From a virus: a stretch of 64,000 nucleotides of DNA. Below the pieces are notes generated by a model. It searched no databases, was not told where the DNA came from, and saw only the letters and a program-made list of their open reading frames with translations. A program made the position numbers and the translations under genes. Shown here piece after piece: positions 19,583 to 43,472 of this stretch (positions are counted from its first letter, which is position 1; every line of letters begins with the position of its first letter). The stretch is from positions 43,282 to 107,281 of IMG/VR virus record IMGVR_UViG_3300021964_000023; one strand, given 5' to 3'.

Positions 19583-20131
19583 ATGAAGAGCATTAACCCA
19601 GAACTAATCGGTGATTTTAAATCCATTGATTACCCTGCACGCAGACAGTTCCCTAGCGATGAGATTGTAGAGCGTTGGAAAAATCTTGGTCATCTGTATG
19701 TCAATTATACTGGACTTCTTCGTGAAGAGTATCGCGGGGTTCCTGAATGGAGTCATGAGATCGTAAAGGTTCTTAGGAAGAAATATATTCCAGTTGGTGA
19801 TAAGTGGTACTTTATGGATAAGACTTCTTTGTCACTCTATAACATGCCCCCAGGCACAATTATGCCAGAGCATGAGGATACTTATCCAAGGTTCCGAGAG
19901 ATCTATGGAGAACCAGACATCAATAAAATTTGTAGAGTTCTAATTTTTCTTGAAGACTGGAAGACGGGACACTATTTTGAACTGGATCGTCAACCATATA
20001 CCAAATGGAAGAAGGGTGATTATCTTTATTGGACTGGAGATACTACTCACCTTGCAGCAAACCTTGGTAAAGAGAATAGATATACTATGCAAATCACGGC
20101 GACTTTAAAATGCGGAAGCGAAGAGCAGTAG
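19583..20131 (+). CDS. 2OG-Fe(II) oxygenase-like protein
   Basis: 182 residues from the ATG at 19583 (an in-frame TTG at 19577 adds two). MPEHEDTYPRF contains an HxD pair (HED), and THLAANLG with RYTMQI supplies the distal histidine and arginine of the double-stranded beta-helix oxygenases. The best fit is the Asp/Asn beta-hydroxylase-like group. It overlaps the sulfotransferase gene by 22 bases. Target unknown. Confidence 0.7.
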   Translation: MKSINPELIGDFKSIDYPARRQFPSDEIVERWKNLGHLYVNYTGLLREEYRGVPEWSHEIVKVLRKKYIPVGDKWYFMDKTSLSLYNMPPGTIMPEHEDTYPRFREIYGEPDINKICRVLIFLEDWKTGHYFELDRQPYTKWKKGDYLYWTGDTTHLAANLGKENRYTMQITATLKCGSEEQ

Positions 20132-26250: not shown

Positions 26251-27212
26251 ACTCAAGAAACGAATGGGATAAACTTAAGAAGGTAATAGTTGGAGTTGCT
26301 GATTTTGCTCAGATACCTGAGATGGACAAAAGTCTCAGGACTATCAATTATGCAGATCGCTCTGATGTATCTTCGGTTAAAGTTGGACCTTATCCTCAAC
26401 AAGTCATTGATGAGGCAAATGAGGACCTTGAAATCTTCTGTGACTTTTTGCGCGGTGAAGATGTAGAGGTTCTAAGACCAAATAGAGAACCAACCGAATA
26501 TTATAATTACTGCCCTAGAGATTCTGTGTTTATTCATGGTGATCTTGTATTGGCGACTCCGCAACCCTTGAGGTCAAGAGTTGGAAATTGGAGATCGTTT
26601 AAGCATCATCTTGAAAACGTTTTTGAGATGCCATGCTCTTACCATGATGGACTTTATAACGAAAAGTGTATTGGCAATCCAGACATTCTTGCATTGACTG
26701 AAGTTACACCAGCTTTTGATGCTGCTAATGCAATTAGAGCAAATGGCGATGTGCTTTACTTGCAATCAAATAGTGGTAATGCTGCAGGAGCACATTTACT
26801 TCAGAAGTTATTAAATTGTGATGCACATGTATCTGTTGTTAAAGATATCTATACTTATGTGCATATAGATACTACAATTGCATTTTTACGAGAAGGATTG
26901 TTGATGGTTAATCCTACTAGAGTTACAGATCCTGGTAGTCAACTACCACATCCATTCAACACTTGGGATGTGATTAATGCACCAGATCCTATTGACATTG
27001 GATATTATCCTGGGTATAATAATGCTTCGGAGTGGTGTAACATGAATTTGTTTAGTGTATCACCAAATTTGGTTGCTCTTGAAGAACATCAGCATCCAAC
27101 TAGAGAGGTATTAGAAACATATGGTATTGAGTGTGCTATGCTTCCCATGAGGCATCAAAGAACTCTTAGTGGAGGATTCCACTGTGTAACGTTAGATCTG
27201 GAGAGAGGATGA
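26247..27212 (+). CDS. Amidinotransferase (AGAT/StrB1-like pentein)
   Basis: 321 residues. CPRDSVFIHGD, PAFDAAN, YVHIDTTIAFLREG (HID) and GGFHCVTLD (catalytic Cys) match L-arginine:glycine and L-arginine:inosamine-phosphate amidinotransferases, which move an amidino group from arginine to an amine. With sugar genes around it, an amino-sugar or aminocyclitol acceptor is as likely as glycine (inference). It overlaps both neighbours by four bases. Family enzymes have about 350-420 residues, so this one is compact. Confidence 0.85.
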   Translation: MNSRNEWDKLKKVIVGVADFAQIPEMDKSLRTINYADRSDVSSVKVGPYPQQVIDEANEDLEIFCDFLRGEDVEVLRPNREPTEYYNYCPRDSVFIHGDLVLATPQPLRSRVGNWRSFKHHLENVFEMPCSYHDGLYNEKCIGNPDILALTEVTPAFDAANAIRANGDVLYLQSNSGNAAGAHLLQKLLNCDAHVSVVKDIYTYVHIDTTIAFLREGLLMVNPTRVTDPGSQLPHPFNTWDVINAPDPIDIGYYPGYNNASEWCNMNLFSVSPNLVALEEHQHPTREVLETYGIECAMLPMRHQRTLSGGFHCVTLDLERG

Positions 27213-28540
27213 AAGTAGGTATTATTGGGACAGGTAGACTTGGTGGTCCAGTATCAGAGGCGTTTGCGGAATCTGGTCATGAAGTATTTGCTTATGATAT
27301 TGCTGGTGGCAAAAATATCAAAGTAACTGAAGAGGGTGGATCCAGAAAGTACTACAAAACTATTAAAAGTGTGGTGCAAAAGACTGCTATGGTTTTTGTT
27401 GCTGTCCCTACACCGCACAGTGAAGAGTATGATGGTAGTTCTCCATGTATGGATTTAGAACCAAAAGATTTTGACTATACTATAGTTAAAGAAGTTTTAA
27501 CCGAAGTTAACAAATATGCATCATCTCACCAGCAAGTAATTTTAATTTCTACAGTTCTTCCTGGAACTATTAGAGAGCAGCTTCTTCCTTTGGTCCCTAA
27601 TTGTACTCTCATTTACAACCCATATCTTATTGCTATGGGTACAGTAAAGGATGACTTTAGAAATCCAGAGATGATAATGGTTGGGACAGAGAATAATTTG
27701 TCGATCGATAATATTTTGTTTAGATCCTTAATCAAGTTCTATTGTAGTTGCAGTAGTATTTTTGATAAAGATGATGATAGGCGAGAAGATAATCCAGAAT
27801 TTTTGAATAAATTTGTTACTGGAACATATGAAGAGATGGAATGCGTAAAGGTGTTTTACAATACCTTTATCAGCAGCAAAATATCTTTCGTTAACATGAT
27901 TCAAGATGTTGCAGAACGTCAAGGAAATATTGATGTTGACGTTGTAACCAATGCTCTTACTAGTGCATCTACTAGAATTATTAGTTCTGCATATATGAAA
28001 GCGGGTATGGGTGATGGTGGTGCTTGTCATCCGAGAGATAACATTGCTCTTAGATATCTTGCTCAAAAATTAGATCTGGGATATGATATCTTTGAATCTG
28101 TAATGCGTTCTAGAGAGCAACAAGCAAAAAATCTTGCTGAGTTCCTAGTTAAACTTGCAGATACTTGTAGAACTCCCATTGTTATTCATGGCAAAGCATA
28201 CAAACCTAAAGTGCCATATATTGACGGTAGTTACAGTCTTTTAGTTGGTCATTATGTTGAACAACTTGGTGAGAGAGTTAGATATGTTGACCCATATACT
28301 GGTGATAAGTGGAGTGGTCCAGCAATTTTCCTACTCGCACATAGTGTAAGTACTACGTATAGGTATTGGGAAAAACAAAACACTGGTGATGAAGTATACT
28401 GTGATTTCCCATTTGGTAGTGTTATTGTTGACCCTTGGAGGAAGTTTAAAGCTCCTGATGATGAACCTCTAGAGGTAATTTATTATGGTAATACTAGAGG
28501 CAAAGCAGAACACGACGCTAAAAGCATAGACAAATCCTAA
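27209..28540 (+). CDS. UDP-sugar 6-dehydrogenase-like protein (UDP-Glc/UDP-ManNAc DH family)
   Basis: 443 residues. The NAD-binding GTGRLGGPV is near residue 7, STVLPGT is the conserved mid motif, and GGACHPRDN holds the catalytic cysteine. The His-Pro-Arg after the Cys differs from the usual FPKD of UDP-glucose dehydrogenase and is nearer the ManNAc type. The product would be a uronic acid sugar nucleotide. It ends the operon of the first accessory island; MazG follows with its own leader. Confidence 0.85.
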   Translation: MKVGIIGTGRLGGPVSEAFAESGHEVFAYDIAGGKNIKVTEEGGSRKYYKTIKSVVQKTAMVFVAVPTPHSEEYDGSSPCMDLEPKDFDYTIVKEVLTEVNKYASSHQQVILISTVLPGTIREQLLPLVPNCTLIYNPYLIAMGTVKDDFRNPEMIMVGTENNLSIDNILFRSLIKFYCSCSSIFDKDDDRREDNPEFLNKFVTGTYEEMECVKVFYNTFISSKISFVNMIQDVAERQGNIDVDVVTNALTSASTRIISSAYMKAGMGDGGACHPRDNIALRYLAQKLDLGYDIFESVMRSREQQAKNLAEFLVKLADTCRTPIVIHGKAYKPKVPYIDGSYSLLVGHYVEQLGERVRYVDPYTGDKWSGPAIFLLAHSVSTTYRYWEKQNTGDEVYCDFPFGSVIVDPWRKFKAPDDEPLEVIYYGNTRGKAEHDAKSIDKS

Positions 28541-29014: not shown

Positions 29015-30508
29015 ATGAAGATAACTAATATTTGCATACTAGGTGGAGGGACCGCTGGTTTTATGACCGCAGCGGTCCTTTCTCAGTATGTAAAGAATTG
29101 CAATCTTGATATTAAAATAAAGTGTGTATATTCTAGCAAAATCGGAATCATTGGTGTAGGAGAATCTACCCAACTTGCAATAAATGATATCTTTCAGTTT
29201 TTGCGACTGAGAGATTCTGATTGGATGTCTAAGTGTAATGCAACTTATAAAACAAATGTGAGATTTGAATCTTGGTGTAATCCTGGAGAAAGTTTTTACT
29301 ATCCATTTGGAGATTTGACAGGTGAGGATTTATCCCCATTTTTTATCCTACAAGAATTATTTCCCGATCAAATAGATAAGACTCATTTTGCTAGGTATGC
29401 TAGAGATCACTCCAGATTTGCTGAACTAAACAGACTGACAGATAAGGGGTGGGAATTTCATGAACTAACTGCATATCATTTTGATACTCATTTGCTATCT
29501 AAAGTTTTATATGATGTCTGTATCAGTAATGACGTAGAGTTTGTTGATGACGAATATTTGAGTTCGCATCAAAACTCCAGGGGCATTGAATATATTGAGT
29601 GTGAAAATACGGGACTGCATTATGCAGATTTATTTGTAGATTGTACTGGATTTAAATCTCTTTTGCTTGGTGAGGAGATGGGAGTTCCTTTTGTACCCTA
29701 CTCTAAAACTTTGATTAATAATAGAGTTGTTACTGCAAAATTAGAATATACAAATAAAGAAGAGCAGTTAAAAAATTATACAAATAATGTCACTATGGAT
29801 AATGGGTGGTGTTGGGAAATACCTCTTTGGGATGGATTGTCTGTTGGTTATGTTCATTCTTTGAAGTTTACAACAGAAGATAAAATAGAGAAAGAATTTA
29901 TCAAAAGATATGGGGTAGCGCCATCGAGAGTTGTTGAATTTAAAACTGGTAGGAGAGAAAGGGCGTGGGTTAAAAATGTTGCTTCTGTTGGATTATCTTT
30001 TGGTTTTATTGAACCTTTAGAAGCAACAGGATTGGCATCAATCATAACTAATATTTTTAGACTTTTAGAAGTATTCTCAGCAAACCATAGAATAAATTCC
30101 TTCGATAGAGAGTTATTCAATTCTTCAGTTATCGGTGAGTTGGATGGACAAAAAACATTTATTGATATTCACTATTCATCTGCTCAAAGATCTGATACAG
30201 ATTATTGGTATCATGTAACTAATGAGATAGAATATGATTGGAATTTTGGAAACTGTAAAAGATCTATAGATGCTACTGTTGGTGATAGAGATTATTCAGA
30301 TAAAAAATTAAACGGTGGAGTTCCATTTATTCTTGTTGGTAATGAATATTCTCCAACGTCTTCTGGGTTTGTAAAGTCTCTTGGTGATAAAAAGCACTAT
30401 GAAAGTGCGTTGAATGAATGGATTGAATATGATTCTATATCTAATCAAACAGTTTTAGAGCAACCAACTACGTATCAGTTTTTGAAGAACAATGTTTATA
30501 GATCATAA
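29015..30508 (+). CDS. Flavin-dependent tryptophan-halogenase-family enzyme
   Basis: 497 residues. GGGTAGF (10-16) binds FAD. IIGVGEST is the conserved block after it. Lys79 in TYKTNV is at the same number as the catalytic Lys79 of PrnA. WCWEIP is the WxWxIP halogenase motif, and FIEPLEATG holds the glutamate that activates tryptophan halogenases, but the following serine is alanine here. The enzyme should chlorinate or brominate an aromatic or indole-like substrate with reduced flavin. No flavin reductase is seen nearby. Confidence 0.9.
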   Translation: MKITNICILGGGTAGFMTAAVLSQYVKNCNLDIKIKCVYSSKIGIIGVGESTQLAINDIFQFLRLRDSDWMSKCNATYKTNVRFESWCNPGESFYYPFGDLTGEDLSPFFILQELFPDQIDKTHFARYARDHSRFAELNRLTDKGWEFHELTAYHFDTHLLSKVLYDVCISNDVEFVDDEYLSSHQNSRGIEYIECENTGLHYADLFVDCTGFKSLLLGEEMGVPFVPYSKTLINNRVVTAKLEYTNKEEQLKNYTNNVTMDNGWCWEIPLWDGLSVGYVHSLKFTTEDKIEKEFIKRYGVAPSRVVEFKTGRRERAWVKNVASVGLSFGFIEPLEATGLASIITNIFRLLEVFSANHRINSFDRELFNSSVIGELDGQKTFIDIHYSSAQRSDTDYWYHVTNEIEYDWNFGNCKRSIDATVGDRDYSDKKLNGGVPFILVGNEYSPTSSGFVKSLGDKKHYESALNEWIEYDSISNQTVLEQPTTYQFLKNNVYRS

Positions 30509-31895: not shown

Positions 31896-33314
31896 ATGGC
31901 AAACCTTAAGCATGTTGTCTCTGATCTTCATCAGGTATATCTGGCGGAGATGGAAGCAAAGATTAAACCTCAGTTAGATAAGTCTTCTGCATCTTCCAGC
32001 GGATCAGGTGACGGTGAGAAGAAAGATTCTGCTGGTGGTGGTGGGGACAATGTTCAGAAGGCAGCGAGACAGCTTGCTTATGACACCAGATATAAAGCAA
32101 GAAGGGAAGGTATTCCTTTAGAGAGAGCATTTACTCAGTCTGTTCAGAACTCTAGCGCACCTGCTCCCGTTAAAGATGCTGCTAAGTCGATGCTCTTTAA
32201 AGGTGGTGATAAGAATGAATCTTTTGAGATTGAAGAAGGAAGAAAGGGTGATAAAGAAAAAGTTAGAGTTACTCCCAAGAAGGGATACGGTGATGCTAAA
32301 GGATATGTAAGATTTGCTGATGCTAAAAAGAAGCATGAATTGAGAGCAAACCCTCAAATTCAATCTGTAACTCCTACAGATCATGGTGACGCTTATGAGG
32401 GTGAGGATGATAAGAAGAAGTCTAAGAAAAAGTCTGGCAAACTTGATCCAGTAGGTCAGGAAGACGGTGATGTAAACAATGACGGTAAGAAGGATTCTTC
32501 TGACAAGTACCTCATGAAGCGCCGTAAGGCAATTGGTAAGGCAATTGCCAAAACCAAAAAAGAAGAGTTCTCTAATTGGAAGGCAGAACTTGGTCTTGAA
32601 GAAGAGACCATGGTCGAAGTTGCTGGAGAAGAGAAGTCAAAAAAGATCACTGAGAAGAACGTAAAGAACAAGATTGAGATTCATCCTGATCTCAAAGAAG
32701 GCATCGCTAAACTCGGCGGCGAAGTTCTTGAGGTTGAAGAAGTTGATCAGATTGATGAAATCACTGCCATGGCAAAGCGTGGTCATGATGAGACTGCAAT
32801 CCGCAATAAGATTGCCAAGTCAACTGGTGGCGGTAAGTCTGCCGATAGGGCAACTGCACTTGCAGATAAACCCACCTACGGTAATGACAAAGCTGCTAAG
32901 CAGAGATCTGATCTTGCTAGAAAGCAAAGAGGTGACTTCCGTAAGACTGCTTCTTCTTCTCCTGGTCTTCATGGTTATGGACACAAGTCTGATGACCCTA
33001 AGGTAAAGGCAAAGCAAGCAGCACGAGGTGCTCAACGTGGTGCTCTGACACCTAACGAGAAGAAGTCTCTGAATAGAGAAGAAGTTGAGCAGATTGGTGA
33101 AGAGAGACCTGTAGATAGACTTGATCGTTTAAACAGGGAAAGAATCGCTAAGCAGAAGGCAGCAAAAGATGCTGAGACTGCAAAGAGAGATCAACGTATT
33201 TCTGATTTCAAAAGTTTTAGAGCAGGTGAACGTGCTAAGGGAACTCGTCACGATCACATCCTTGACAAGTGGCAACAGAAGAAGATTGCTGCTGACAAAG
33301 CAAAAAAGCAGTAG
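31896..33314 (+). CDS. Lys/Glu/Ala-rich virion-type protein (zero-frame product)
   Basis: 472 residues, highly charged. It has Gly/Ser-rich and Lys-rich stretches, a calcium-loop-like EDGDVNNDGKKDSSDKYL segment near residues 190-207 and coiled-coil-prone ends. The zero frame stops at TAG 33312-33314, right after an A AAA AAG slippery sequence. The frame one base back is open from 33296 to 33793 and encodes similar material. The full protein may therefore be a frameshift fusion of about 632 residues. Late-promoter context suggests a virion or head-assembly protein. Confidence 0.7.
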   Translation: MANLKHVVSDLHQVYLAEMEAKIKPQLDKSSASSSGSGDGEKKDSAGGGGDNVQKAARQLAYDTRYKARREGIPLERAFTQSVQNSSAPAPVKDAAKSMLFKGGDKNESFEIEEGRKGDKEKVRVTPKKGYGDAKGYVRFADAKKKHELRANPQIQSVTPTDHGDAYEGEDDKKKSKKKSGKLDPVGQEDGDVNNDGKKDSSDKYLMKRRKAIGKAIAKTKKEEFSNWKAELGLEEETMVEVAGEEKSKKITEKNVKNKIEIHPDLKEGIAKLGGEVLEVEEVDQIDEITAMAKRGHDETAIRNKIAKSTGGGKSADRATALADKPTYGNDKAAKQRSDLARKQRGDFRKTASSSPGLHGYGHKSDDPKVKAKQAARGAQRGALTPNEKKSLNREEVEQIGEERPVDRLDRLNRERIAKQKAAKDAETAKRDQRISDFKSFRAGERAKGTRHDHILDKWQQKKIAADKAKKQ

Positions 33315-33345
33315 GCGAGGCGGCACAACCTAGTGCTTCCTCGCT
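33302..33345 (+). promoter_or_regulatory. Candidate programmed -1 ribosomal frameshift signal
   Basis: A AAA AAG (33302-33308) is in the reading frame needed for tandem slippage, as in dnaX. A 5-base spacer follows, then a hairpin: 33314-33320 pairs with 33339-33345 (GGCGAGG/CCTCGCT, one G-T). An inner GCAC/GTGC stem (33323-33326 with 33333-33336) carries a 6-base loop. The zero-frame stop lies at the base of the hairpin. Confidence 0.65.
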
Positions 33346-33379
33346 AAGAGCAAAACAGCAGGATACCGAGCGTCAGCAA

Positions 33380-33793
33380 ATGCAGAATGCAAGAGCTGAA
33401 TTGGAGACCTCCAGAGCATCTTCTGGTCAGGCAAAGATCCAAGCAAGGAAGGATGAGAAGGCACTTAACGATAAAATTCGTTCTATTGCCAGAGAGGAAG
33501 CCGAACTAGATGAGCGTACTCGTTACGCTAAAGAGACTGGTAAGGATCCTCAGACAGGTAAACCATCAGTAAAAGGTGGAAAAAAACCAGACGCAGCATT
33601 TGCTAAAGTCTCTGCTGAACTGCGTAAAACTGGTGGAATGATGTCCTCCAGAAGAAAACCTATTCAACCGCAAGGTAAGAAAAAGGAAAAGGGTAAGAAG
33701 GGTTACCAAGGAGTAACTCCTGTTGATAGAATCAAAGGAGAACTTGCAAGGAAGAGAGCACCCAAACCTGATATTGGGTCTCGCTTTGATTAA
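33380..33793 (+). CDS. C-terminal part of the frameshift product, or a separate virion-type gene
   Basis: 137 residues from the first ATG. The same frame is open without a start from 33296 and reads AVGEAAQPSASSLRAKQQD, which looks like normal coding sequence. This argues for entry by -1 frameshifting from the upstream gene, giving 161 residues after the slip. The protein is Lys/Arg/Ala-rich with coiled-coil-like heptads and ends PDIGSRFD. A one-base deletion in a run of seven A residues would give the same layout. Confidence 0.65.
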   Translation: MQNARAELETSRASSGQAKIQARKDEKALNDKIRSIAREEAELDERTRYAKETGKDPQTGKPSVKGGKKPDAAFAKVSAELRKTGGMMSSRRKPIQPQGKKKEKGKKGYQGVTPVDRIKGELARKRAPKPDIGSRFD

Positions 33794-33845: not shown

Positions 33846-34040
33846 ATGCTTGCATTCCTTCTTCCATTAGCACAAAAAATCATTGTAGATGCAGTTGCTA
33901 AGATCCCCGATAACGAGGAACTGGGCGAAAAACTGATTGAAATTTGCCTGATCATCCTGGGCAAAGCGGTTAAATTGACCAAGACAGACATGGATGATAG
34001 GTTACTTGCGAAGGTAACTGAGGCGATGAAAGCTCGCTGA
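33846..34040 (+). CDS. Small hydrophobic protein
   Basis: 64 residues with an amphipathic hydrophobic N-terminus (MLAFLLPLAQKIIVDAV) and a second hydrophobic stretch (IEICLIILGKAV). Such small proteins recur in cyanophage structural regions; a membrane or holin-like role is possible but not shown. It is closed by a strong hairpin. The leader holds a small stem (AGTCTG/CAGACT, around 33822-33838). Confidence 0.6.
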   Translation: MLAFLLPLAQKIIVDAVAKIPDNEELGEKLIEICLIILGKAVKLTKTDMDDRLLAKVTEAMKAR

Positions 34041-42908: not shown

Positions 42909-43472
42909 ATGGTTATGAAAATTTTTGCTATTGCTGCACTATTAGCAGTCGCAGGAAGTTCTGTACCAGGAGAAGAAACAAAAACTCCCGTGGAACTTCC
43001 TGTAATTCCTGCTACTTGGAAGTGTCCTGATTGCTCTCCTGCTGAACAATATGTTTTAGCGGAACTGCAGGAACACACCAAAATTGCTGATCGCAATGCC
43101 CTTGCAACTATTTTGGGTAACATCAAACAAGAATCTAAATTCATCCCTAACATCTGTGAAGGTGGTGCTAGGGTAAACTATGAAAACTGCCATGTTGGTG
43201 GTTATGGTTTGATTCAGTGGACTTCTATTGGTCGGTATCGGAACCTTGGTAAGTTTGCTGATAAATACGAATGCAACCCCAGTACATTAGAGTGTCAGAC
43301 TCGTTACATGATTAACGAGAGTACATTCCAACGTTACCTTCCTGAGTTTGAGGGAAGTGGACGAACTGTCTCTCAATATATGGTTCCTGCCTATTATTGG
43401 TTAGGATGGGGCATTAAGGGTAATAGAGAATTGTATGCTTACGATTACACTAAAAAGATGGTTTTGTCATGA
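42909..43472 (+). CDS. Exported lysozyme-type protein (Phage_lysozyme2-like)
   Basis: 187 residues with a signal-like N-terminus (MKIFAIAALLAVAGSS). TILGNIKQESKF and GGYGLIQWTSIGRY match the phage tail lysozyme (Phage_lysozyme2) pattern, in which the glutamate of QES is the likely catalytic acid. Six cysteines suggest disulfides outside the cytoplasm. It probably cuts peptidoglycan during entry or lysis. I use the ATG at 42909; 42915 is equally possible. Confidence 0.75.
   Translation: MVMKIFAIAALLAVAGSSVPGEETKTPVELPVIPATWKCPDCSPAEQYVLAELQEHTKIADRNALATILGNIKQESKFIPNICEGGARVNYENCHVGGYGLIQWTSIGRYRNLGKFADKYECNPSTLECQTRYMINESTFQRYLPEFEGSGRTVSQYMVPAYYWLGWGIKGNRELYAYDYTKKMVLS

Follow-up and report, generated by a model that had tools for sequence, protein, structure and literature searches.

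Comparative evidence for a programmed −1 ribosomal frameshift in a split cyanophage gene of the T4-GC1222/gp186 family

Does a cyanophage gene interrupted by a stop codon specify two separate proteins, or one protein in a short and a long form? The question is raised by a 64,000-nucleotide (nt) stretch of a marine Kyanoviridae-like cyanomyophage, positions 43,282 to 107,281 of the 107-kb IMG/VR contig IMGVR_UViG_3300021964_000023 (hereafter, the window), in which one open reading frame (ORF1) stops one codon after gcA_AAA_AAG while the overlapping −1 frame (ORF2) continues. A first interpretation made from the letters alone, without database searches (the sequence-only reading), had proposed a programmed −1 frameshift. 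Our comparisons strongly support, at the sequence level, such frameshifting at this junction, and the window very probably carries a functional signal for it. The elements involved are:

31896–33314, plus strand: ORF1, zero frame, encoding the short form (472 residues; lysine/glutamate-rich, isoelectric point 9.6), with N-terminus MANLKHVVSDLHQVYL, at the gene position of T4-GC1222 'gp186'
33296–33793, plus strand: ORF2, −1 frame, which would extend the product by 161 residues past the shift, to a 632-residue fusion
33302–33308, plus strand: slippery heptamer A_AAA_AAG in the zero-frame register (gcA AAA AAG), the same in 10/10 split relatives
33302–33490, plus strand: linker (KKAVGEAAQPSASSLRAKQQDTERQQMQNAR...), conserved in the −1 frame before any ATG
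33309–33313, plus strand: 5-nt spacer, equal in length in relatives of groups A and B (see below)
33312–33314, plus strand: zero-frame stop TAG, one codon past the heptamer
33314–33345, plus strand: two-part hairpin, the putative stimulator (outer stem 33314–33320/33339–33345; inner stem 33322–33326/33333–33337; loop 33327–33332)
33491–33790, plus strand: C-terminal tail domain (EEAELDERTRYAKETGKDPQTGKPSVKGG...SRFD), matching the end of phrog_11470

A −1 site of the X_XXY_YYZ type should show an in-register heptamer and an RNA structure, beyond coding needs, about 5–9 nt downstream. The sequence-only reading had placed gcA_AAA_AAG-cag-TAG at 33302–33314, a 5-nt gap and the hairpin exactly to the base, and spliced translation confirmed its open −1 frame and 632-residue fusion beside the 472-residue form. 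The hairpin pairs GGCGAGG with CCTCGCT (7 bp, outermost G.U) around GGCAC/GTGCT (5 bp, outermost G.U), with a folding energy of −20.6 kcal/mol; when the −1 frame was recoded synonymously 3000 times, none of the sequences reached this value (z = −4.3). Of 124 distinct A_AAA_AAG sites lying in frame in unsplit cyanophage ORFs, only 1 was followed by a structure stronger than −16, that one being the homologous site of an uninterrupted relative (L125), and no hairpin follows the second in-frame A_AAA_AAG of ORF1 (TCA AAA AAG, about 32637). Measured from the first base of the P-site codon, the window stem starts at a distance of 11 nt, which matches the 11–12 nt spacing at which dnaX and HIV stem-loops block A-site binding (PMC7282821).

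To find homologues among IMG/VR contigs we searched by protein only, with the linker alignment as query and no DNA pattern. This search retrieved 12 contigs with the window junction, 10 split and two uninterrupted (L123 and L125). The alignment of homologues called for by the sequence-only reading bore it out: heptamer, nearby stop and hairpin were kept in 10/10 split relatives, all with gcA_AAA_AAG, the same frame offset, a zero-frame stop within 0–5 codons and a stem at 5 nt. The split relatives come from about 10 metagenomes, with junction protein identity down to ~42%, and form two groups, A (the window and L006–L011) and B (L012, L018, L030 and L065). Between groups the linker protein is ~42% identical and the stops differ, TAA directly following the heptamer in L030/L065 and TAG lying five codons after it in L012/L018; the ORF1 C-termini also differ in sequence (DKWQQKKIAADKAKKQ, RERVQDAKKDLARR and YRKANAKK, each before the stop). 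Spacer, outer stem and stem architecture are the same. The inner stem occurs as GGCAC/GTGCT, AGCAC/GTGCT, GGTAG/CTATC and AGTGG/CCACT, with every pair retained; read by hand, 4/5 of its positions have two-sided changes, compensatory in L010, L012/L030 and L065. The hairpin exceeded 3000 synonymous recodings of the downstream frame in all seven split sequences tested (z −4.1 to −5.9).

The sequence-only reading had also claimed that the −1 frame is coding before any ATG, and protein-level conservation of the linker bears this out. From the slip up to the first ATG, the −1 frame differs between pairs of group A sequences by 3–6 synonymous changes and no nonsynonymous one; the stretch after the slip gave a proportion of synonymous changes (pS) of 0.67 and of nonsynonymous changes (pN) of 0.13 for L065 versus L030. 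In L012, L018 and L030 the first 53 codons of the −1 frame past the slip include no ATG, GTG or TTG. These patterns show that the −1 frame is under purifying selection upstream of any start codon. Heptamer, structure, conservation of signal and offset, and protein-level selection before a start codon were thus all found at this site.

The simplest competing account is a sequencing or assembly error, in which a normal single ORF appears split because one of seven consecutive A's was lost, and the tail domain does lie in one long ORF in many relatives. However, the split recurs in 10 other contigs, across metagenomes and at the lowest identities, always with six A's, and a tailored hairpin is not expected from an error. 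The unsplit L123 and L125 have six A's too, their frame difference lying outside the A-run. Because split and unsplit relatives alike have six A's, the lost base put forward by the sequence-only reading as the simple alternative is excluded, and the error account retains virtually no probability. Slippage of the RNA polymerase on the A-run could likewise make the long form, since one inserted A leads to the −1 frame. Six A's are short for transcriptional slippage, no other run lengths appear among relatives, and a hairpin at fixed spacing and an in-register G ending A_AAA_AAG are typical of ribosomal shifting, so that this account is very improbable.

A real one-base deletion could instead have left two ORFs that are translated separately, by re-initiation or from an internal start (ATG 33380), with no frameshifting. 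In group A about 66 nt separate the zero-frame stop from the first in-frame ATG, and some module II genes elsewhere have their own start codon and ribosome-binding site (L150, L159 and L202). Under such a scheme, however, heptamer and hairpin would have no cause to persist, and the linker before ATG 33380 is conserved as protein in the −1 frame. The synonymous-only changes, together with the 53 codons without a start in L012, L018 and L030, mean that separate initiation cannot explain the conservation of the linker; we regard this account as unlikely, although less so than the two others.

Several observations weigh against programmed frameshifting in the window. The first ATG of the −1 frame, at 33380, is codon 26 after the slip, and with this in-frame ATG some ORF2 product could arise separately in group A. 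An internal Shine–Dalgarno sequence is absent upstream of the window heptamer (best duplex −0.3 kcal/mol at 6–12 nt), and for want of this element of E. coli dnaX the efficiency may be modest. A formal covariation count on a MAFFT alignment was uninformative, a codon gap having been misplaced into the stem. Finally, no cultured phage in the collection has the window's own junction, and no exact DNA similarity to isolates was found. By tblastn against isolates, the last ~100 residues of ORF2 were found in many cyanophages and the linker in none; among viral contigs, those aligning with the whole of ORF2 show a frame break at the corresponding position.

The two uninterrupted relatives run from MANLKHVVSDLHQVYL through KKIN/SAEAVD...QQDTER to the tail in a single frame, with the frame difference just downstream of the heptamer. 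A single uninterrupted frame without a conserved hairpin had been named as the pattern that would count against frameshifting. The uninterrupted frame exists, but A_AAA_AAG, a hairpin at the same spacing and a strong internal Shine–Dalgarno are retained (−9.8 kcal/mol, top 0.2%). The hairpin is clear in L125, the best of the 124 unsplit sites scanned; that of L123 did not differ significantly from synonymous recodings (p 0.16 and 0.09). In both (L125:3973 and L123:3973) a −1 shift would lead to a stop three codons on, giving a short form as in E. coli dnaX. An uninterrupted relative at another junction (L042:1162, cassette II below) also has a slip site, an internal Shine–Dalgarno, a strong hairpin and a −1 stop three codons on. 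From these sequences, a frameshift of dnaX polarity, giving the short form, is possible in L125, L123 and L042. Reversal of dnaX polarity by one base has been described where efficiency is near 50% (PMC5009743); here, too, the polarity of the frameshift appears to be reversible between relatives, and we infer that both isoforms are kept across the switch.

Other sites of related form were noted. In the unsplit L052:3220, L054:2767 and L036 (near 3598), gaA AAA AAG is followed at 8 nt by a GTCYGAG/CTCRGAC stem, with a compensatory change in L036 versus L052/L054, and by an early −1 stop, making this a candidate truncating frameshift. In isolate S-SM2 (L214:3663) and contigs L093:5652 and L202:1032, GCA AAA AAG TCT GA.. 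precedes a hairpin of the CGCCCGC..GTGGGCG type, and a stop closes the −1 frame after 3 codons. In S-ShM2 (L002:3348–3420) a 2-base difference from the unsplit L023 divides the homologous gene so that the second ORF has a +1 offset, as is probably also the case in S-RIM14 and S-SSM2; with an offset of +1, not −1, S-ShM2 and S-RIM14 were left out of the split count.

We scanned the retrieved loci for A_AAA_AAG with an open −1 frame and the end of the zero-frame ORF no more than 20 codons away. Members of the gene family with this architecture had hairpins of −18 or better, versus −11.3 or weaker for other overlapping gene pairs except L067, a tail-chaperone-like frameshift. Pattern hits in L062, L064, L068, L070, L071, L073, L074, L077, L079 and L082 were unrelated. 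Two further junctions with this architecture occur in the same gene, cassettes II and III, non-homologous to cassette I of the window, in about 10 further records including two isolates. Cassette II (KKDSMG[SD]V[VI]KDFYKSDAPQF) is found in L031, L178, L179, L186, L188 (with little upstream sequence), L195 and isolate SynMITS9220M01 (L130; MT408532, about 132572–132610), where the gene is annotated as two coding sequences. Cassette III (KKVVKEGDYTDAE) is found in L029:3437, L342:2501 and isolate S-BM3 (L215:3642; OQ319121, about 64122, minus strand), and consists of GCA AAA AAG TAG with AAGGAG upstream and GGAGGG/CCCTCC around CTGATGCAG/CTGCATCAG.

Hairpins of both cassettes departed from synonymous recodings (z −3.8 to −5.5), and AGGAG or AAGGAG lies 8–11 nt upstream of the heptamer, within the top 1–2% of window positions. 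Internal Shine–Dalgarno duplexes reach −7.4 to −9.8 kcal/mol in cassettes II and III and in L123/L125, and are at most weak in group B. We dropped the module II hairpin (GGGG..CCCC) as a frameshift-specific element, since the copies with their own start codon (L150, L159 and L202) fold as well or better, so that the hairpin by itself says little for cassette II. An ATG four codons past the slip also calls for caution with this cassette. It is evenly balanced, in our view, whether the gene, as a mosaic, underwent at least three acquisitions of efficient −1 cassettes at non-homologous junctions together with polarity switches by one-base indels at homologous ones, two isoforms being kept.

In the proposed mechanism, the hairpin would lie at the mRNA entry channel of ribosomes that have translated ORF1 as far as A_AAA_AAG. 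Ribosomes that do not shift would stop at TAG and release the 472-residue short form. In a fraction, both Lys-tRNAs, probably of one tRNA-Lys(UUU) species, would re-pair one base back on AAA AAA, and these ribosomes would continue in the −1 frame to the 632-residue long form with its conserved basic C-terminal tail domain. A single tRNA-Lys(UUU) makes A_AAA_AAG slippery in E. coli (PMC5009743). Synechococcus WH7803, the host of S-BM3, which may not be the host of the window phage, encodes a single tRNA-Lys (anticodon UUU) among its 43 tRNA genes; tRNA-Lys is absent among the seven tRNAs in the window. That shifting occurs, and its efficiency, we infer from the sequence; a high rate would be consistent with the reversed polarity in relatives.

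No functional family matched either frame above the cut-off, Pfam giving none at all for either ORF, and the description of both as virion-type in the sequence-only reading finds no support here. The protein is 39% charged and low in hydrophobics; both products are highly charged and probably disordered. The sole link to the virion is the neighbouring T4-GC190 protein, usually encoded next door, which has been found in cyanophage particles (PMC3037559; similarly PMC10665884). As a working model, we consider a two-isoform assembly or internal protein with the tail on the long form only. The phage presumably needs the two forms in a defined proportion, as would plausibly suit a particle or assembly protein of which only some copies have the tail. 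Residues 191–210 of ORF1 (window 32466–32525) contain a dockerin/EF-hand-like calcium-loop motif, DVNNDGKKDSSD / DVNNDGKKDSSDKYLMKRRKAIGKAI, which matches Pfam Dockerin_1 below the cut-off (E = 0.019) and recurs in several cyanophage proteins.

The gene lies in the Kyanoviridae order cytidyltransferase-like gene, frameshift gene, GC424-like gene (phrog_402, 33846–34040), gp61 primase and nrdA, a synteny shared with S-BM3, S-ShM2 and ACG-2014d. Its position between the cytidyltransferase-like gene and GC424 and its conserved tail domain place it in the T4-GC1222/gp186 family. The tail domain matches positions 550–687 of 687 of phrog_11470 (E = 1.8e-42), and most cyanophages carry it at the C-terminal end of a single unbroken ORF (about 470–870 residues in most of the related viral contigs). 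Elsewhere in the window, a tryptophan halogenase-like gene (29015–30508; phrog_2928, E = 2.7e-114) lies near a UDP-glucose dehydrogenase-like gene (27209–28540). At 20104, T_TTA_AAA ends a 176-codon ORF, with the −1 frame open for 239 codons and a strong downstream fold (−22); this is probably an ordinary overlapping start, with an ATG two codons on.

The closest parallel is E. coli dnaX (tau/gamma), which has A_AAA_AAG, a downstream stem-loop at matching distance, two C-terminal isoforms and a single tRNA-Lys(UUU), the last seen here in the probable host clade. Unlike in dnaX, a non-homologous gene, the shift in the window would give the long form and no internal Shine–Dalgarno is present; that element is shared with dnaX by cassettes II and III and L123/L125, and its polarity by L123, L125 and L042. 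In a few bacteria dnaX polarity is itself reversed, tau coming from the shift and the gamma stop following directly (PMC5009743). Our pattern scan also recovered probable examples of the lambda-like G/GT frameshift of tail assembly chaperones (L061, L066 and L067), whose gene typically lies between those for the major tail protein and the tape measure; in contrast to these, the window protein is 472/632 residues long and highly charged, lacks a match to the tail assembly chaperone family, and is encoded between the cytidyltransferase-like gene and gp61 primase, not beside a tape measure gene. The csoS2 gene of alpha-carboxysomes undergoes 50% −1 frameshifting (PMC5009743). It is similar by analogy only, with two isoforms differing in their C-terminal part; the shift there gives the short form, and there is no homology as far as tested (no Pfam match). 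The hypothetical T4-GC1222/gp186 gene of Kyanoviridae (phrog_11470, phrog_1418) shares gene position and tail domain, but is usually one ORF; a shift cassette divides it in the window and in about 20 other records (10 at this junction, about 10 with cassettes II/III). We found no paper on frameshifting in cyanophages or on a split T4-GC1222/gp186, subscription literature being outside the search.

The junction has been kept or re-invented in related viruses, and both forms therefore probably matter to the virus. Current annotation breaks the gene into two 'hypothetical proteins', as in S-BM3 and SynMITS9220M01. With frameshifting, the gene gains a testable expression mechanism, and specific junction peptides are predicted in these two cultured phages. 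For S-BM3, the short form is predicted to end in ...SAKK and the long form to read ...SAKKVVKEGDYTDAEK; the predicted tryptic junction peptide of the window is (K)AVGEAAQPSASSLR. The gene also offers naturally occurring shift cassettes of both polarities, with which selection on the isoform ratio can be tested directly. If the proposed history of repeated acquisition and polarity switching is true, these phages would constitute a natural viral series showing selection for the ratio of isoforms, and not for a particular frame.
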